Shown here one piece after another: positions 5,736 to 15,312 of a DNA stretch of 20,767 nucleotides. The stretch is taken from the NCBI GenBank assembly GCA_002308815.1, contig DBVX01000004.1, forward strand, positions 7,653 to 28,419, written 5' to 3'. The translations under genes and the position numbers were made by a program. Origin of the DNA: Bacteroidales bacterium UBA1253 (lineage in GTDB: Bacteria; Bacteroidota; Bacteroidia; Bacteroidales; Paludibacteraceae). The notes beneath the pieces were generated by a model. That model had not been told where the DNA came from. It made no database searches and was given only the letters and a program-made list of their open reading frames with translations. Within the stretch, counting starts at the first letter, position 1. Each line of letters begins with the position of its first letter.

Positions 5736-5767
5736 TTTGCATACACCAACAAAATGCCGCAACTTTG
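5736..5767 (+). promoter_or_regulatory. Promoter of the WYL regulator gene
   Basis: TTTG at 5736-5739, 20 nt, then CAACTTTG at 5760-5767 (one mismatch to TAnnTTTG). The expected transcript start, at about 5775, lies downstream of the upstream in-frame ATG at 5737, so the internal ATG at 5794 must be the real start. Confidence 0.6.
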
Positions 5768-5793
5768 CAGACCCAAAACCAAAAGCATCTAAC

Positions 5794-6807
5794 ATGGACA
5801 TCCGCAAGAACAACAAGCACCAGCGTTCCCGTTGCAGGGCGTTGGACAAGTGTTTCCGCAACCGCACCATCCGCTTTTACATCGAAGACCTCATTGAGGC
5901 TTGTGAGAAGGCGTTGGAGGACGAGTACGGTGAACCGATAAGCGTCAGCCGGCGGACGGTCATCAACGATATGAACTATATGGAAAGCAATGCCGGGTAC
6001 CAAGCTGACATTGAACGGATTGCAGACGGCAAGCGCAAGTATTACCGCTATGCCGACCCGGATTTCTCCATCGAACAGACACCGCTCACCGATGACGAGA
6101 TGCAAAAACTGCAGGAGACGGTTCTGATGCTTTCGCGTTTCCGCTCGCAGTTCCCGTGGATGGAGGACTTGCTGCTTGAGTTGCAGACGCGGTTCCGCCT
6201 GGACGGTCATACGGAGAGCGTCATCGGCTTTGACAGCAATATCGACATCCGGGGCTTGGAGTGGATTGAGCCGTTGTTCCGCTATATACTCAACCGGCAG
6301 GCAGTGGAAATGACCTATCAGCCTTTCGACAAGTCCGAATGTCAGTGGACGCTGCACCCCTATTATATCAGACAGTATAACAACCGTTGGTTCCTGTTCG
6401 CACGGAACGACACGGACGGCAGGATTGTCAATACCGCTTTGGACAGGATCATATCCGTCTCGCCGTCAGGCAGAAGGTACATCCCGAACACGGATATTGA
6501 CTTTTCGGAGTATTTTGATGATGTGATAGGTGTTACTATTCCTTCGGACACACCGGCGGAACATATTCTTCTCAAGTTCTCGTCCCATCGTTTGCCGTAT
6601 GTTCTTTCCAAGCCGTTGCATCTTTCCCAGAAAATCAAAGACCGCGAGCAAGGTATTGTTGAGATAACCGTTATTCCCAATCGCGAATTGGAAGCCCGGC
6701 TTCTTTCGTTTGGCAGCGATGTGGAGGTGCTTGCTCCTGCATCTCTCCGCAATCAGCTACAGACCAAAATTCAAAAAATGCACGCCTTGTATTTCGACTG
6801 CAAATAG
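5794..6807 (+). CDS. WYL-domain transcriptional regulator
   Basis: A 337-residue protein beginning MDIRKNNKHQRSRCRALDKC. An N-terminal winged-helix-like DNA-binding region (about 10-85, including PISVSRRTVINDMNYM) is followed by a linker helix region. The WYL domain lies at about 160-235 with LHPYYIRQYNNRWFLFARN, and a C-terminal WCX-like extension with VTIPSDTPAEHILLKFS runs to the end. WYL regulators bind ligands, often nucleic-acid-derived, and commonly control phage-defence or DNA-repair gene clusters, for example BrxR and CapW as repressors. An in-frame upstream ATG at 5737 would add 19 residues but lies before the predicted transcript start. The TAG stop is embedded in an inverted-repeat operator that recurs upstream of rmuC, suggesting this protein regulates its neighbours. 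Ligand and mode of regulation are unknown. Confidence 0.85.
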   Translation: MDIRKNNKHQRSRCRALDKCFRNRTIRFYIEDLIEACEKALEDEYGEPISVSRRTVINDMNYMESNAGYQADIERIADGKRKYYRYADPDFSIEQTPLTDDEMQKLQETVLMLSRFRSQFPWMEDLLLELQTRFRLDGHTESVIGFDSNIDIRGLEWIEPLFRYILNRQAVEMTYQPFDKSECQWTLHPYYIRQYNNRWFLFARNDTDGRIVNTALDRIISVSPSGRRYIPNTDIDFSEYFDDVIGVTIPSDTPAEHILLKFSSHRLPYVLSKPLHLSQKIKDREQGIVEITVIPNRELEARLLSFGSDVEVLAPASLRNQLQTKIQKMHALYFDCK

Positions 6808-7037: not shown

Positions 7038-8327
7038 ATGGTAGTAAAAGACTATAAACCCCGTGTTTGCGATGCCGAACTACAAGAACAATTGGAGGCT
7101 TCGGGCGCAGTGTTAATAGAAGGTGCAAAGTGGTGCGGCAAGACCTATACGGCACGCAACGCTGCTGCAAGCGCCTTGTTTATGCAAGACCGAGACCAAT
7201 CAAAACGGTACAAACAAATAGCGGCGAATACGCCTTCTTTGTTGCTTGAAGGGGCGACTCCGCGATTGATTGACGAATGGGAGGAAGCCCCCGTATTGTG
7301 GGATGCAGTGCGTTTTGCTGTTGATATGCGCGGTGAGGTCGGACAATTCATTCTGACCGGCTCGGCAGTACCAAAAGATGACAAAACAGCGGATGAAGAC
7401 GAGAAAAGGATGCACTCGGGGGTCGGCAGAATCGCACTCTTGCGAATGCGCACGATGTCGCTGTGGGAGTCCTGCGAATCAAACGGTATGGTAAGTCTCC
7501 GCGCGTTATTTGACAGTCAGCCGCAAGTCGCTGCACAATCTGACTTGACGATAGAGCGGCTTGCATACGCCATCTGCCGTGGCGGATGGCCGGCAAGTGT
7601 CAGACTCAAAGAACGGGCGGCACTGAAAACCGCTCGCAACTATGTGGAGGAGGTGATAAATTTTGATGTCCATCGCGTGGATGGCGTGGAAAAGAATCCG
7701 CTTCGTGTGCGGAAACTGCTGGAGTCCTATGCACGCAACATATCCACCATGGCTTCTAATGAGACCATCATGGCTGATATCCGTGCCACTGACCAAACTA
7801 TTGCGGCAAACACCTTTGCCACTTACATGACCGCTCTCAGGCGTATCTTTATTATAGACGATGTGCCTGCATGGTCTCCTGCCTTGCGCTCAAAAACCAC
7901 AATACGGACAGCACCCAAACGGCACTTTGTGGATCCGAGCATAGCGGCTGCACTGATGCGCATAAGTCCTTTGGGATTGCAAAAAGACTTTAACACTTTC
8001 GGGTTCTTGTTTGAAGACCTTTGCGCCCGTGACCTGCGGGTGTATGCACAGGCAAATGACGGTGATGTATATCATTATCATGACAAGAAAGATCTGGAGT
8101 GCGACCTTGTCGTGGCGCTGCGTGACGGTCGTTGGGCTGCTGTGGAGGTAAAAACGGGAATACACGAAGAGAATGAGGCTGCTAAACATCTGCTTGCCTT
8201 GGCGAATGACATTGATGAACAAAAAATGACCAAACCGTCTTTCCTGATGATTCTTACCGGCGGGCAGTATGCATACCGCCGTGCAGATGGTGTATACGTT
8301 ATTCCTGTCGGCTGCCTCAAACCATAA
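7038..8327 (+). CDS. ATP-binding protein, AAA_14 + DUF4143 family
   Basis: A 429-residue P-loop ATPase of the widespread AAA_14/DUF4143 type. Walker A is GAKWCGKT (29-36), the Walker B-like strand is RLIDEWEEAP (76-85) and a sensor-like FILTGSA is at 104-110. Then come GVGRIALLRMRTMSLWES (128-145) and GGWPAS (182-187), typical of the family. The C-terminal DUF4143 region carries FLFEDLCARDLRVYA, DLECDLVV and WAAVEVKTG. The pattern E326, D356, E370-x-K372 resembles a PD-(D/E)XK nuclease core. The family is common in Bacteroidales and archaea. Its function is not established, though toxin-like, defence or DNA-processing roles have been suggested. It lies between the WYL regulator and rmuC with its own promoter and a 23-bp repeat array. 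Confidence 0.85.
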   Translation: MVVKDYKPRVCDAELQEQLEASGAVLIEGAKWCGKTYTARNAAASALFMQDRDQSKRYKQIAANTPSLLLEGATPRLIDEWEEAPVLWDAVRFAVDMRGEVGQFILTGSAVPKDDKTADEDEKRMHSGVGRIALLRMRTMSLWESCESNGMVSLRALFDSQPQVAAQSDLTIERLAYAICRGGWPASVRLKERAALKTARNYVEEVINFDVHRVDGVEKNPLRVRKLLESYARNISTMASNETIMADIRATDQTIAANTFATYMTALRRIFIIDDVPAWSPALRSKTTIRTAPKRHFVDPSIAAALMRISPLGLQKDFNTFGFLFEDLCARDLRVYAQANDGDVYHYHDKKDLECDLVVALRDGRWAAVEVKTGIHEENEAAKHLLALANDIDEQKMTKPSFLMILTGGQYAYRRADGVYVIPVGCLKP

Positions 8328-9830: not shown

Positions 9831-9866
9831 CGGTACAAATCTATACACTAAAAGCCTCTACTTTTG
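9831..9866 (+). promoter_or_regulatory. Promoter of the methylase-kinase gene, with a degenerate operator
   Basis: TACTTTTG at 9859-9866 is a full -7 element. Upstream, TACAAATCTA then TACACTA (about 9834-9850) aligns with the rmuC operator with one base deleted, matching in the CAAAT and CAC cores. The -7 element and the bases just after it (TACTTTTGCACCG) are identical to those of the rmuC promoter. Transcription from here leaves about 65 nt of leader. The operator similarity is weak and needs testing. Confidence 0.45.
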
Positions 9867-9933
9867 CACCGAATTCAAGAAAACAACAGAAAAATTTATT
9901 GATTGTTTCATCCTTTAATTTGGAGATTTGATT

Positions 9934-12309
9934 ATGGCAAAGATGTCACATACAGCCCCGCAATTGTCAGTGCACAATATTATTTTCAAATATTGTAATT
10001 ATCGACGTGCTAAAGCAGCAATAGTTGATGCGCGTATTGAACTGTTGGGCTATATCGCTCTCCAGATTTGTCCGAGCCGTTTTCATTCGTTTGAGATATT
10101 CGAAAAGGCACCGTTCCAGCACGACGTTCTGTCTGAAGAAGAGAAGAACTTCCTTCTTGACAATGCGGCTGAAGCGGTAGATATATTGTGTTCGCCAACT
10201 GAGAGCATTGGCTCTTTCAGTGAGTTCATGATGCAACCGGCAGAACTCACGCAGTTGGCCGTTGCTTCATTGAAAGGCATACCGGAAGGAACAACGGTAT
10301 ATAATCCGTTTGCTGGTATGAACTCTTACGCCGTCGCTGCTCCTCAATATCATTTCGTCGGAGAGGAGATCAACCAGCAAACTTGGGCTGCTGGTCAGGT
10401 GCGGCTCATGGTGCATGGTGTCGATGCAGATATTAAGTTGGGAGATTCTAATACCGCCCATCGAGGCGATATGTTTAAAGCCATAATCACAACTCCTCCG
10501 TTTGGATTACGCGGTGATTTGGATCAATGGGAGCGGATGTATGACATGCTTGACGATGGTGGGCGTTTGGTGATGATAGCACCGACAAGCCTAACCTTTA
10601 ACGGACGGTATAGGCGATTGTGGAAAAGATGGAGAGAGGATAGAACTCTCGCGACCATAGTACAACTTCCTTCACGCTTGTTCTTTCCTACCGATATTGC
10701 CTCCATACTTGTTGTTTTGGAGAAATGTGATCATCGTACGGTGCGTATGATAGATGCATCTACTTTGGGTACCAATAGCAAGATGCGTTCTATGACTTTA
10801 GGTACGGACAATGTGGATATGCTGACGAAATTGTTGCAAGGCGGAGATGCGCTGCTCTTCAAAGGATGCATTGATGTTCCTTTTGAGGCAATCAACCCTA
10901 CCAAGGCTATATCACCACACATATACATATCAGAACAGTCGCTTCGTTCAAAAGGGCTAAAGAACCTTATACCCTTATATTTTTTGTTGGAACCATATAG
11001 ATGCTGTTTGAGAACATTTCAAGGAGAGGTTCACGAGGTTAAGATTAAGAACCTAGCCGAAAATCTACTCGATTCGGTAAAGGATTTTGCTGACCTGCCT
11101 CCTGTTCTATCTTCGGATAAATTCCCGTTGATTCTCAATGAGAACAATATTCTACTTATTGCAACTTCCGGTCAAAATCCGAAACCAACAATTTTTCGTT
11201 ATGTGCAAGGTAGTGAACATACTGTGGTTTGTTCAAGCCATAATATCGCTGCTTTCAAGTTAAAGAGAGATGTTGATTTGGTTGGTTTGGATTATATTGT
11301 GAGCGAATTATACAAGCCTTATGTGCAAGAGCAGTTAGAAGCAGCACATGTTGGTAGATATATAGCTCATGTGGCTATAAATGATTTTTTATGGATTCGC
11401 ATCAGTGTACCCTCATTGGAGAGACATGACTCAATGGCAGAGGAACGTAGTATTACGGATTTCAAAATACAGTACCAGCAAGAACTTTTAGCCCAAACGG
11501 GAATTCAACTGCGCGAGTTGCAAGATCAGAAGCACGATCGATATGTCAAAATCATGCATCAGCGTAAGCATGCTTTAGGTCAGGTCTTGCAAGAGATCAA
11601 GCATGCCGTTAATCTTATCCAATACGCGGCGGTTAACAACGATGGTATTGTTCGTCTTACGGATATAGTATCTACACGTTCTCATAAGACCATTGATGCA
11701 GAATTACAAGGTCTTAAGTCACAGACAGAGCGGATTATCAATATGGTTGATAGTCTGACAGATGATACGGAGTTTGAAAAACCCGAAGAGGTGTCGTTAT
11801 ACGATCTGTTAGAGCAGTTCCAACGCGACCAATTGAATGATCATTATGAATTGCATATTGCATATGAGACGGAGTCTGGTTTTACAATCGATAAGTCATA
11901 CCTTGAGGAGAATGGTTTAAAGTATAGGGACTACAAGATTTCCTTTGCACCTGCTGAGTTTATCCAAGTATTGCAGAATATTGCAAGCAATGCTGTCAAA
12001 TATGGTTTTGATGAGGATGATAAACTAAATATCATTCAAATTTCAGTTTCGCCGTCACTATGGCATCCTAAATCGGCTATATCGATACGTATTGCCAATA
12101 ATGGTAAGCCGTTACCCAAGGGCATGACACCGGAGAAAGTGTTCACGCAAGGTGTTACTTCCGGCAAGGGACAAGGTCTTGGTGGATGGCACACGCGCAA
12201 TATAGTAGAATTTTATGGTGGTAATATAGAACTCGAATCACATGATGATTCAGAGTTTAAGGTTGAGTATATTATTAATCTCCCATTTATAGAAAGCTAT
12301 GAAGTATAA
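9934..12309 (+). CDS. Fusion: N6-adenine-methylase/specificity-like module + histidine-kinase-like GHKL module
   Basis: A 791-residue protein, starting at ATG 9934 with GGAGA 7 nt upstream. The first half resembles HsdM-type DNA methylases: motif I-like YNPFAGMNS (123-131), FVGEEINQQT (141-150) and GQVRLMVHG (154-162), and motif IV-like TTPPFG (186-191), where the catalytic N/D/S is Thr. Residues about 400-500 (SELYKPYVQEQL, GRYIAHVAINDFLWIRISVPSLE) resemble the end of a type I specificity domain. A coiled region follows, with a possible H-box RKHALGQVLQEI (His546). Then a GHKL ATPase: N-box QNIASNAVKYGF (Asn686), G1-like IANNGKPLP with Asn for the usual Asp, and G2 GKGQGLGGWHTRN (744-756). 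It overlaps the next gene, a receiver protein, by 11 nt. I infer a cytoplasmic DNA-sensing kinase. No membrane segment is seen. Confidence 0.8.
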   Translation: MAKMSHTAPQLSVHNIIFKYCNYRRAKAAIVDARIELLGYIALQICPSRFHSFEIFEKAPFQHDVLSEEEKNFLLDNAAEAVDILCSPTESIGSFSEFMMQPAELTQLAVASLKGIPEGTTVYNPFAGMNSYAVAAPQYHFVGEEINQQTWAAGQVRLMVHGVDADIKLGDSNTAHRGDMFKAIITTPPFGLRGDLDQWERMYDMLDDGGRLVMIAPTSLTFNGRYRRLWKRWREDRTLATIVQLPSRLFFPTDIASILVVLEKCDHRTVRMIDASTLGTNSKMRSMTLGTDNVDMLTKLLQGGDALLFKGCIDVPFEAINPTKAISPHIYISEQSLRSKGLKNLIPLYFLLEPYRCCLRTFQGEVHEVKIKNLAENLLDSVKDFADLPPVLSSDKFPLILNENNILLIATSGQNPKPTIFRYVQGSEHTVVCSSHNIAAFKLKRDVDLVGLDYIVSELYKPYVQEQLEAAHVGRYIAHVAINDFLWIRISVPSLERHDSMAEERSITDFKIQYQQELLAQTGIQLRELQDQKHDRYVKIMHQRKHALGQVLQEIKHAVNLIQYAAVNNDGIVRLTDIVSTRSHKTIDAELQGLKSQTERIINMVDSLTDDTEFEKPEEVSLYDLLEQFQRDQLNDHYELHIAYETESGFTIDKSYLEENGLKYRDYKISFAPAEFIQVLQNIASNAVKYGFDEDDKLNIIQISVSPSLWHPKSAISIRIANNGKPLPKGMTPEKVFTQGVTSGKGQGLGGWHTRNIVEFYGGNIELESHDDSEFKVEYIINLPFIESYEV

Positions 12310-13261
12310 CGTTCTGTGGATTGACAATGAGCCGAGCGATAGTTTCATGGATGATGCTTATAACAATTTTGATTTGAACATCATCAATAAAGAAAACTAC
12401 GTTGAGGGGATGGAATGGTTGGAAGAAAACCGTGAGAATTGTTATGCGGTTATATTAGATGTCAACTGTGTTGAAACAAGTTCAGTTGATGAGAGTGAGT
12501 CAATGGATGTCTTCACGGATTACCTGCCGCACGTGATTAAACTTTGTGAACGACAAGATCATTTTATTCCATGGTATGTTTATACGGCTGGCGGTTATGA
12601 AGGATATGAAACACTGAAAAGAACTATAACCGGCAAACGTGACTGGGATCCGAAGAAAGAGGATAAGTACTATCGCAAGCCCAAAGATAGCATTGAATTG
12701 TTACAAAACATCAAAACCGCTATAGTAGAAAATGCGCGATACGTGCAGAAGTATAAAGACCTCTTTGAATTATTCCCAGACCTAGAACATAAATCGAGTT
12801 TACTCCGCATTATAGAGATAGTAGAGGAAAACAAAACCTCCAATTCCAGTGCTTATAATGATATTAGAAAAATACTGGAAGCCGTAACGGACATACTAAA
12901 AATTAAAGGATTTTTTCCAGATGATCTGGATGGACTCTCTTCTGCGTCCTATTATATAAGGCAGATTTGTATAAAGGGTAGACAATTCTTAGTTCCAAGT
13001 TATATTTCCTATTGTTATACGGCTTGTGAAGATATCTGTAACGATGGAAGCCACAATGGTGGTAAGACACCAATGAAAGTAGATAAGGATACAAGTAGCT
13101 ATAAAGCTCCGTATCTCATTAGAAGTACTTTCTTTATGTTGAGTAATATAATTGTTTGGGCAAGTAAGTTATCTGCTACTGAAGATAGTATTACATATCG
13201 TAAGCAGAAAGTGGCAGAGTATAACATCCCAAAATTTGAAAGAAATAGGAAAACTGAATGA
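12299..13261 (+). CDS. Response-regulator receiver protein with HEPN/DUF4145-like C-terminus
   Basis: A 320-residue protein. The N-terminal receiver domain (about 1-145) keeps the key positions: VLWIDNEP with D9 and E11, phospho-acceptor D54 in VILDVNC, T96 in VYTAGG, and K127-P128 in YYRKPKD. Residues about 165-290 form a helical domain with YNDIRKILEAVTDIL (186-200), a central ACEDICNDGSHNGG (242-255) and IRSTFFMLSNIIVWASKL (274-291). The R-x-x-x-E helix followed by a GSH motif and a closing helix resembles DUF4145/HEPN domains, many of which are RNases or nucleic-acid effectors. The usual catalytic Arg near the His is not seen, so activity is uncertain. It overlaps the kinase-fusion gene by 11 nt, so the two are translated together, and it is the obvious phosphorelay partner. 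There is no DNA-binding output domain. The gene is clearly A+T-rich. Confidence 0.8.
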   Translation: MKYNVLWIDNEPSDSFMDDAYNNFDLNIINKENYVEGMEWLEENRENCYAVILDVNCVETSSVDESESMDVFTDYLPHVIKLCERQDHFIPWYVYTAGGYEGYETLKRTITGKRDWDPKKEDKYYRKPKDSIELLQNIKTAIVENARYVQKYKDLFELFPDLEHKSSLLRIIEIVEENKTSNSSAYNDIRKILEAVTDILKIKGFFPDDLDGLSSASYYIRQICIKGRQFLVPSYISYCYTACEDICNDGSHNGGKTPMKVDKDTSSYKAPYLIRSTFFMLSNIIVWASKLSATEDSITYRKQKVAEYNIPKFERNRKTE

Positions 13262-13271
13262 TTTCTGCATC

Positions 13272-13307
13272 TTGTGAAACAGTTTACACTTCAATCCACT
13301 ACCTTTG
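13272..13307 (+). promoter_or_regulatory. Promoter of the small acidic protein with a related operator
   Basis: TTGTGAAA (13272-13279), CAG, then TTTACACT (13283-13290) resembles the rmuC palindrome (TTGTG..AA and ..CAC cores) with one base fewer. TACCTTTG at 13300-13307 is a full -7 element, 28 nt from the start of the palindrome, versus 29 in the two strong copies. It starts within 15 nt after the receiver gene ends. Confidence 0.5.
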
Positions 13308-13353
13308 CACTATATTTAATACACATTTCTTCATCTATAAAATTTTTGATGAT

Positions 13354-13551
13354 ATGGCACTTTTTGATTTTCTCTTTGGTTCTGATGAGCATTCAAGTGA
13401 TGATGTTGAAGATTACCGCAGCGTAGCCGAAGACCGACGCTTCCGTACACAAGATTCCGGCAATTGGACCGACCGCGAAGATTGGGACTGTGGCGAACCC
13501 GACGATGATGGTATGTCCGGATTCGATATTTATGAAGATAATTATTTTTAG
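13354..13551 (+). CDS. Small, very acidic hypothetical protein (65 aa)
   Basis: Starts MALFDFLFGSDEHSSDD and ends GFDIYEDNYF. It has 21 Asp/Glu, five Arg and no Lys, giving a strong net negative charge. A short hydrophobic N-terminal helix precedes a mostly disordered acidic tail with two Trp residues in the middle. I chose the ATG at 13354 because the TACCTTTG promoter (13300-13307) lies inside the longer open frame that starts at 13258. I recognise no family; small Bacteroidales proteins with a similar (M)-x-LFDFLFG start exist but have no known function. A DNA-mimic or regulatory partner role is only a speculation from charge. It follows the receiver gene by 92 nt and carries its own operator-like promoter. 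Confidence 0.6.
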   Translation: MALFDFLFGSDEHSSDDVEDYRSVAEDRRFRTQDSGNWTDREDWDCGEPDDDGMSGFDIYEDNYF

Positions 13552-13890: not shown

Positions 13891-15312
13891 ATGATATACG
13901 GAAGAGAAGAAGAAATACAACTCCTAAAGTCGCTGGCAGACAGTGACAAATCGGAATTCGTGGCAGTCTATGGGCGCAGACGTGTAGGAAAGACTTACTT
14001 AATCCGAGAGACATTCAACTATCAGTTCGCCTTTCAGCACACCGGGCTGCAGGACGCTTCAACGCGTGAACAACTGGAGGAATTTGCCAACTCTCTGGTT
14101 ATTGCGGGTATGAAGAAAGTCAAATGCCCCAAGAACTGGTCACAGGCGTTTTTTATCCTCGCGCAACACCTCAACTCGTTGCCCGAAGGCAAAAAAATCG
14201 TCTTCATTGACGAGTTGCCGTGGCTTGACACACCCAATTCCAAGTTTGTTTCCGCGCTTGACCATTTTTGGAACGGATGGGCTACGGCAAGAAGAGATAT
14301 TGTCTTGGTTGTGTGCGGCAGTGCTACTTCTTGGATTATTGACAAAATAGTAAAAAACTACGGCGGCTTGCATAACCGGCTGACACAGCAGATTTACCTG
14401 CGTCCGTTCACCCTGCATGAGTGCGAACAATATGCCGGACAGCGCAATCTCGGTATGAGCAGGCGTAATATACTTGAAACATATATGGTGCTGGGCGGCA
14501 TACCTTTCTACTGGGATATGCTTCGGAAAGACCTTTCTTGGGCGCAGAATATCGACCGTCTGTTCTTCTATCCCGATGGCAAGATGCGCGGCGAATTTGA
14601 TGCCTTATACAAATCGCTGTTCCGGCATCCGCAGGCATATATCAATGTAGTAACAGCACTCGGAACAAAAAAGGCTGGTATGACTCGAAGCGAACTTATT
14701 GAAGCGATCGGAGTAAACAACGGAGGTACACTCTCGAAAATCTTGGAAGAGCTTGAGCAATGCGATTTTATCCGTTCATTCACACCGATTGGAAAAGTTA
14801 AGAAAGAAACCGTCCACCAGTTGATTGACAATTTTACGCTGTTCTATTTCAAGTTTATAGCATCCAAAGACATAAATGAGAAGGACTACTGGTCGCACAC
14901 CATCACCAAGCCTGCCTACAATGCTTGGAGCGGCTTGGCATTCGAGCGGGTCTGTTTCCAACACATCAGTCAGATAAAAAAGGCATTGGGGATTGCAGGC
15001 GTGATCAGCAATGTCCATTCTTGGGTATACAAGTCAAAAGACAAGGATGAAAAAGGTGTGCAGATTGATATGGTCATTGAGAGGGACGATAACGTAATCA
15101 ACCTGTGTGAAATAAAATTCGCGCAAGGAGAGTACGAATTGACAGAGAGTTATGATCTGGAACTGCGCAACAAGACAGGCACATTCCAATCAAAAACAAG
15201 AACCCGCAAGGGCGTCAGCATCGTAATGATAACATCGTATGGCCTGAAACGCAACGCATGGGCAAACGGTATCCAACGGCAAATAACGATGAACGACCTG
15301 TTTGAATCATAA
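13891..15312 (+). CDS. Archaeal-type ATPase with C-terminal DUF234
   Basis: A 473-residue STAND-like P-loop ATPase of the ATP_bind_2/DUF234 type. Walker A is GRRRVGKT (28-35), Walker B is KIVFIDELPWLD (102-113) and a sensor-like VVCGSATSWI is at 140-149. A winged-helix region lies at about 250-305. The C-terminal DUF234 domain holds FERVCFQHI (351-359), VQIDMVIE (390-397) and LCEIKF (405-410). E352, D393 and E407-x-K409 follow the PD-(D/E)XK layout. The family is frequent in Bacteroidetes and archaea and is functionally uncharacterised; nuclease or defence roles are suspected. It is the last accessory gene. cobB starts 27 nt after its stop with no visible promoter between, so the two are probably co-transcribed. 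Its promoter carries a doubled palindrome. Confidence 0.88.
   Translation: MIYGREEEIQLLKSLADSDKSEFVAVYGRRRVGKTYLIRETFNYQFAFQHTGLQDASTREQLEEFANSLVIAGMKKVKCPKNWSQAFFILAQHLNSLPEGKKIVFIDELPWLDTPNSKFVSALDHFWNGWATARRDIVLVVCGSATSWIIDKIVKNYGGLHNRLTQQIYLRPFTLHECEQYAGQRNLGMSRRNILETYMVLGGIPFYWDMLRKDLSWAQNIDRLFFYPDGKMRGEFDALYKSLFRHPQAYINVVTALGTKKAGMTRSELIEAIGVNNGGTLSKILEELEQCDFIRSFTPIGKVKKETVHQLIDNFTLFYFKFIASKDINEKDYWSHTITKPAYNAWSGLAFERVCFQHISQIKKALGIAGVISNVHSWVYKSKDKDEKGVQIDMVIERDDNVINLCEIKFAQGEYELTESYDLELRNKTGTFQSKTRTRKGVSIVMITSYGLKRNAWANGIQRQITMNDLFES

Follow-up and report, generated by a model that had tools for sequence, protein, structure and literature searches.

A histidine kinase with an apparently disabled type I modification input and its receiver partner: a putative defence alarm

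The sensor-partner pair and its phosphotransfer residues

We analysed a stretch of 20,767 nt from Bacteroidales bacterium UBA1253 (Paludibacteraceae; assembly GCA_002308815.1, contig DBVX01000004.1, positions 7,653-28,419), the whole of which is called the window in the following. It contains two genes which overlap by 11 nt on the forward strand. The upstream gene codes for a sensor histidine kinase and the downstream gene for its partner, a response regulator with a helical output domain (Table 1). The initial annotation, made from the sequence alone, had described the sensor as a fusion of methylase-like, specificity-like and GHKL kinase parts, and all three could be confirmed by the matches found. 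The N-terminal part carries the M-subunit fold of type I restriction enzymes, resembling EcoR124, PacII and EcoKI in both fold and sequence, and is matched by Pfam family N6_Mtase. It is followed by an HsdS-like region, of which there is one half only (profile positions 350-514; 3okg_A, E 4.5e-10; 5ybb_D, E 4.7e-10); PADLOC specificity models match the sensor at E 0.001-0.016. The GHKL domain scores well above the Pfam cut-off (43 versus 26.4 bits). The closest structures to the input include M subunits that were determined together with Ocr and ArdA, two proteins which mimic DNA (7eew, 7bto, 7bst).

As a methylase, the sensor is very probably dead. The generic catalytic motif IV of N6 methyltransferases is (N/D/S)PP(Y/F/W). 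All ten neighbouring HsdM proteins that were compared have this motif (nine adjoin the partner gene, while that of locus L057 is about 4 kb away), but it occurs in only 2 of 30 sensors, or 2 of 29 when L056, whose N-terminal part has no match to the M profile, is left out. The two sensors are those of L004 (SPPF) and L054 (NPPW), the latter without motif I; the L005 sensor, which is 93-97% identical to that of L004 depending on the region, has SPPI. The window sensor has TPPF and an altered motif I. Some features persist: many sensors retain part of motif I, as P[FY]xG, and the acidic residue E145 at the end of strand 2 is conserved in the 15 sequences of alignment A4 as well as in most sequences of the larger set. 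Thus, the methylase of the initial annotation stands as an M-subunit fold but very probably not as an enzyme, and we consider this part very probably to be a pseudo-enzyme that serves as a sensor.

While the methylase motif is mostly lost, the phosphotransfer residues are nearly all kept. The alignment comprises 31 sensors, from 20 loci and from relatives P0002-P0012; P0001 (the window's own sensor) and P0013 (which has no kinase end) were excluded, and loci L126 and L127 are absent. A histidine is found at the position of the candidate phospho-acceptor His546 in 31 of 31 sensors, as are N686 of the N-box and the GxG of the G2 box. The N-terminus of the partner is a CheY-fold receiver with the acidic pair, the phospho-Asp, Thr/Ser and Lys, so that the reading of this protein as a receiver with D9, D54, T96 and K127 is upheld. 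D54 is present in 139 of 139 partners. For this count, relatives were collected with a 33-sequence profile from 5.8 billion proteins (188 matches at E <= 1e-3); 119 of the best 120 of the 188 were aligned, with P0014, the window's own partner, omitted.

Several sensors have a different layout. That of L006 (8621-9967) has 448 aa and no M domain but extends from the specificity-like end through the kinase; its partner is present, and it represents a minimal form. Extra N-terminal regions are found in the sensors of L018 (6994-9942), where Pfam reports HARE-HTH (E 5.8e-6), and of L057 (6695-9508), the start of which resembles that of L018 by eye. Relatives P0008-P0012, with about 985 aa, have an S-M-S-kinase layout with an added N-terminal part and a kinase-like end, and one of these is annotated as N-6 DNA methylase in Bacteroides caecimuris. 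No partner was found for P0008-P0012; a search of 149 genomes with P0012 returned only its own genome and a fragment.

Table 1. Features of the pair and its regulator-like neighbour in the window (positions are those of the window).
Feature	Position	Strand	Basis
Sensor histidine kinase with putative pseudo-methyltransferase and specificity-like input, 791 aa	9934..12309	+	
M-subunit core, residues 101-300; motif I NPFAGMNSYA, motif IV TPPF (HsdM: NPPF/NPPY)	10234..10833	+	
HsdS-like half, about residues 350-514	10981..11475	+	approximate, from profile positions
His546, candidate phospho-acceptor, within RKHAxxQ	11569..11571	+	
GHKL ATP-binding domain, Pfam stretch 675-777 extended to the C-terminus	11956..12306	+	E 7.1e-11
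GHKL boxes: N-box N682/N686, G1 box NNG, G2 box GxG	within 11956..12306	+	
Response regulator (partner), receiver and helical output domain, 320 aa	12299..13261	+	
Receiver domain, residues 1-150 (D9, D54, T96, K127)	12299..12748	+	
Helical output domain, about residues 162-307 (R190, E194, H252, W287), HEPN-like in layout only	12782..13219	+	
TAnnTTTGC element, about 65 bases 5' of the sensor ATG	9859..9867	+	pattern search
Next TAnnTTTGC element, right after the partner gene	13300..13308	+	pattern search
WYL-WCX regulator, separated from the sensor gene by two genes; taken from TTG, true start unsettled	5737..6807	+	WCX E 6.6e-13, WYL E 2.1e-9

Constancy of the pair and its restriction neighbours

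In the order, 5 of 393 genomes gave strong matches to the partner, and in the phylum 11 of 395 did so, the source genome being included in both. At E > 1e-6, 4 of 9 matching genomes were dropped from the order search and 28 of 39 from the phylum search; those listed for the latter mostly showed coverage of the receiver only. These genomes, five loci from a search of genome contigs, a Myroides plasmid and a phage-labelled contig make up a set of 22 loci. The set is not random, L004 and L005 are counted as two although near-identical, and L016 has only 4.4 kb. In all 22 loci, the window included, the sensor gene is the adjacent upstream gene of the partner gene, which rules out a chance pairing. 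The co-occurrence on which the initial annotation had staked its reading is thus found throughout.

When plasmids were searched with partner queries, only three Myroides records were found. The sensor of L049 matched 1522 plasmid records, but coverage reached at least 80% only in the three from Myroides; the sensor of L004 matched none at E 1e-40. One of the three Myroides plasmids was analysed; it is mobilizable and carries the pair. Scans of viral contigs with the partner family gave no match, nor did a first scan of genome contigs with the sensor as query. The phage-labelled locus, L127 (MT835483.1, 11376-24386, "UNVERIFIED: Bacteriophage sp."), has genes for a WYL-like protein, the sensor, the partner, an HsdM-like and an HsdS-like protein in a row; this contig may be bacterial or a mobile element rather than a phage.

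Sensor and partner have diversified together. Distances between kinases correlate with those between receivers (r=0.84, n=22), a value which was reached by none of 999 shuffles. For the 12 loci with HsdM, the kinase-receiver correlation is 0.89, while that between kinase and HsdM is -0.04 (n=12; 564 of 999 shuffles were as high). Without L005, the values are 0.63 (0 of 999) and 0.10 (206 of 999), respectively. There is a weak trend between kinase and WYL (r=0.23, 45 of 999). The contrast is most evident between L004 and L005, which share 97% identity in the kinase and 99% in the receiver, but 19% in HsdM and 52% in WYL. Co-inheritance of the pair with the neighbouring HsdM is therefore unsupported by the distances. 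The same holds for a repeated capture of the local HsdM by sensors, since in a tree all 12 HsdM cluster together (support 0.943), separate from the 27 sensor M domains used. The tree is moderate evidence, as degenerate sequences give long branches; L006 and L056 were excluded. Because the kinase co-varies with the receiver and not with HsdM, we consider the pair to be a module which is combined with different restriction systems.

The gene which follows the partner codes for HsdM or a fused M-S protein in 11 of 22 loci (L004, L005, L017, L048, L049, L050, L051, L053, L054, L126, L127, according to their gene lists). When the examined flanks are considered, 13 loci have type I genes, with L052 and L057 in addition to these eleven. 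The other nine (the window, L002, L003, L006, L018, L019, L055, L056 and the almost flankless L016) have none; type I genes were called with few HsdM/S/R seeds at E 1e-8. A WYL regulator occurs in the examined stretch of 15 of 22 loci and directly precedes the sensor gene in several loci other than the window. Only sensor and partner are constant across the set, followed in frequency by WYL (15) and the adjoining HsdM (11), as judged by reading gene lists without clustering. In L056 (7259-10474), the sensor of which matches the family weakly, the pair is located inside a type III-A CRISPR locus. It follows a RAMP gene, which by gene order is in the csm5 position, and precedes a gene for a Csx1-CARF-like protein, whose 21.4 bits fall short of the cut-off (24.7), and cas6. 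Defence-type surroundings, as proposed in the initial annotation, are thus seen in many loci and also in the window, where the pair is accompanied by WYL, RmuC and two AAA proteins with matches to PADLOC candidates. Two nuclease-related genes were observed in other loci: in L017 (6670-7869), HsdM and HsdS of the type I operon beside the pair are separated by a gene for a YhcG/DUF1016 nuclease, and in L003 a DUF1016-like gene was seen by eye after WYL.

The PADLOC candidates matched by the AAA proteins of the window are PDC-S01 (7038-8327, E 6.6e-64) and PDC-S27 (13891-15312, E 4.9e-206). In the source genome, which is 69% complete, N6_Mtase matches reach at most 55.1 bits. Promoter-like elements of the pattern TAnnTTTGC, which resemble the -7 promoter box of Bacteroidota, occur 11 times in the window against 3.57 expected, and none of 100 shuffles reached this number. 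Neighbouring genes are also preceded by such elements (6980, 8366, 13856). Since one of them precedes the sensor gene and the next follows the partner gene, the pair looks like a two-gene transcription unit of its own. A 97-aa ORF (13258-13551) without family match overlaps the end of the partner gene by 4 nt. It has a later ATG at 13354, downstream of the element at 13300, and could represent a short gene of its own, coding for an acidic protein.

The helical output domain of the partner

Among 139 sequences of the output domain, R190 is present in 139, E194 in 132, H252 in 138 (one gap) and W287 in 139. In the structure model, the second helix of the domain (185-202) carries R190 and E194, and another helix (234-251) is directly followed by H252. 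In the available text of PMC3710099, the HEPN superfamily is described as having a His where helix 3 ends and an acidic residue in helix 2. This layout is found here when the helices, which outnumber the basic four of HEPN, are counted as we read them.

Family searches returned few clues. Among the 25 listed of 43 Pfam families matching 47 partners at E up to 10, there was no HEPN family. The matches to Pkinase (24 of 47 partners, best E 0.0009) and to HydF_dimer (13 partners, best E 0.0018) are presumed to be spurious. The matches listed in a fold search with the partner model are receiver folds. When compared by sequence to solved structures, the output domain gave only weak matches or designed helical proteins (9r1o_A, E 3.4e-4). 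No gene-regulatory or DNA-binding output domain was detected in the partners by Pfam. We describe the domain as HEPN-like in layout only, and an RNase output, as suggested in the initial annotation, as a conjecture: a His is invariant at the expected place, but the Arg of the HEPN motif is missing.

The partners of L004, L005, L006, L016, L019, L048-L052 and P0032 have an additional C-terminal segment of about 60 residues. Nine of these pieces were searched against Pfam, with results that were all below the cut-off: one matched a bacterial OB fold (E 0.008), one S1/CSD (E 0.03) and three unrelated families (E 0.03-0.08), while four had no match. The segment possibly adopts an OB/cold-shock-like fold.

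A proposed defence alarm, its rivals and its relatives

In our view there is an even chance that the pair represents a cytoplasmic defence alarm, which combines a dead M.S input, a phosphorelay and a helical effector partner. The sensor input would bind a ligand that is most likely DNA-shaped, either the DNA of an invader or an anti-restriction protein of a phage which mimics DNA and attacks surfaces of this type. Upon binding, the kinase would autophosphorylate on His546 and the phosphate would be passed to Asp54 of the partner, which may then act directly via its HEPN-like helical domain (Arg190/Glu194/His252), probably on RNA or translation. The pair would represent a second line beside restriction systems. 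This proposal combines the loss of the methylase motifs in an M.S-like input, the phosphorelay residues, the constant pairing, the failure to find a gene-regulatory output domain and a linkage to restriction and CRISPR genes in which the pair does not match its neighbours; together they suggest an alarm that can guard different systems. More tentatively, and with clearly less confidence, we suggest that the dead DNA-handling part of a restriction enzyme is a bait for anti-restriction proteins or foreign DNA, which would make the pair a portable tripwire for the neighbouring restriction or CRISPR system and a kind of immune sensor for which we found no earlier description.

Several observations weigh against the alarm. 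All 31 sensors have a G1 box of the form N(N/T/S)G. In GHKL kinases it is usually DxG, with Asp first, so that ATP use by the sensor may be atypical. In the alignment, K127 is absent from two of the 20 partners that belong to loci. No type I genes were seen beside the pair of the window itself, and the linkage is a raw count (13 of 22) in a set not drawn at random. Concerning the output, the HEPN motif Rx4-6H is not found, as none of 138 partners has an Arg in the stretch from -4 to -9 relative to His252; as described in the available text of PMC3710099, some HEPN families retain the His but lack the motif Arg. Profile comparison by hhalign supports no firm assignment either way. The output domain matches DUF4145 with a probability of 7.25% when 39 sequences are used but 0.69% with 139, and PF05168 HEPN with 0.16% and 0.19%, respectively, while controls reach up to 1.3% and 4.6% (the latter with the ATPase domain of the kinase). 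For Abi_C, the values are 1.57% and 3.61%. As yardsticks, DUF4145 and Abi_C match each other with 87%, DUF4145 and PF05168 with 47%, and Abi_C and PF05168 with 9%; the HEPN profiles were built from 14 of 22 DUF4145, 14 of 15 Abi_C and 16 of 30 PF05168 loci. The register of the 39-sequence alignment places R190 and H252 on the Arg and His of DUF4145.

Alternatively, though we consider this unlikely, the sensor might be a sequence-specific reader of foreign DNA, with the specificity half finding a fixed target and the dead M part testing its methylation, so that unmethylated phage DNA triggers the response. Such a role would fit the HsdS-like half and the matches of the sensor model to DNA-bound methyltransferases (e.g. 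CamA and TaqI, over residues 98-519 or so). Also, in some pairs the target-recognition region is somewhat more divergent than the remainder of the sensor (71% identity versus 75-87% elsewhere for the window and P0002; 37% versus 44-65% for the window and P0003). However, such variability is slight and not uniform across sensor pairs, and the hypervariability expected for target switching is missing: the region is 95% identical between L004 and L005 and, with 57%, exceeds the M core (47%) between L002 and L003. Furthermore, the near-identical kinases of L004 and L005 are located beside unrelated modification genes, which argues that a reader would not be matched to the local methylation pattern. 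The trigger by DNA recognition that was part of the initial annotation is thus one of several possible, and its tuning to a single target is opposed by these pairs. Together with the low variability of the target region, they favour a general DNA-shaped ligand, possibly including anti-restriction mimics, over one fixed target.

A control switch for restriction enzymes is another explanation to which we assign a low probability. The phosphorylated partner, with a DUF4145-like helical domain, would dock to HsdR or to the M.S complex and toggle restriction. The linkage to HsdMSR genes would be accounted for, and the HsdR frames of L049 and L050 indeed have an N-terminal DUF4145. But nine loci are without a type I gene in the examined flanks, the kinase does not co-diversify with HsdM, and the similarity of the partner to DUF4145 is equivocal. 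It is improbable that the pair is an ordinary signalling pair outside immunity, responding to stress or metabolic state, which has recruited the methylase-like input, e.g. for sensing of SAM. Binding of SAM would be compatible with the remnant of motif I and E145, but the neighbouring genes (WYL, type I restriction and, in one locus, CRISPR), the sporadic occurrence in genomes of the order and phylum, and the presence on a mobilizable plasmid argue against such a function. Finally, an active DNA methyltransferase fused to a kinase as an epigenetic regulator, as the N6_Mtase match and the public name of a relative would have it, can practically be dismissed, because motif IV is absent from 28 of 30 sensors and motif I is altered, while the HsdM of the same loci retain motif IV.

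Bacterial genetics has studied few topics for as long as restriction systems and two-component signalling, yet no earlier description of a kinase with a disabled type I modification input was found among the results listed in searches of open-access literature. The public annotation of a relative is "N-6 DNA methylase" and that of its partner "hypothetical protein". If the proposed alarm is true, restriction, anti-restriction and abortive infection would be joined by a phosphorelay. This would also raise the testable question whether a pseudo-enzyme decoy can be a sensor of phage counter-defence.

We classify the pair as a defence-linked two-component kind, a variant for which no earlier description was found, with a real chance that it is more than this. 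Type I M and S subunits share fold and sequence with the input, but here the catalytic motifs are lost, and M and half an S are combined with a kinase in one chain. The best PADLOC match of the methylase part is mad2 from MADS (E 6e-14); apart from mad2 and mad5 on the sensor, no mad model was found among the eight window proteins scanned. DefensePredictor lists HATPase and REC among the domains of predicted systems (PMC13092281). Detocs is, as far as the available text of PMC11249213 goes, a family of three-gene systems, best known with an ATP-cleaving PNP effector. The likeness is that of a two-component anti-phage pair whose output is an effector rather than gene regulation, an immune role of our pair being a proposal. 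The difference is that there are only two constant genes, with a pseudo type I M.S input and a helical output.

According to the available text of PMC3710099, PrrC is encoded beside the type Ic system PrrI and is released when T4 uses the Stp peptide. It is similar in being a second-line effector in a type I neighbourhood, a setting seen in 11 of 22 loci (13 when nearby genes are counted) but not in the window, and in its release, with a HEPN domain as effector, by an anti-restriction peptide. However, PrrC is a single ABC-ATPase-HEPN protein with tRNA anticodon nuclease activity, held by a real restriction complex. In the pair described here, relatives of which are found beside unrelated restriction systems, this link would be replaced by a phosphorelay together with a separate sensor that resembles a dead M.S. 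PARIS (AriA/AriB) senses anti-restriction proteins such as Ocr and halts translation (PMC11455837), but it consists of an ABC ATPase and a Toprim/OLD nuclease, without phosphorelay or methylase-like part. That the present sensor might detect DNA mimics as PARIS does is only a proposal, but PrrC and PARIS are precedents for defence that is triggered by anti-restriction factors.

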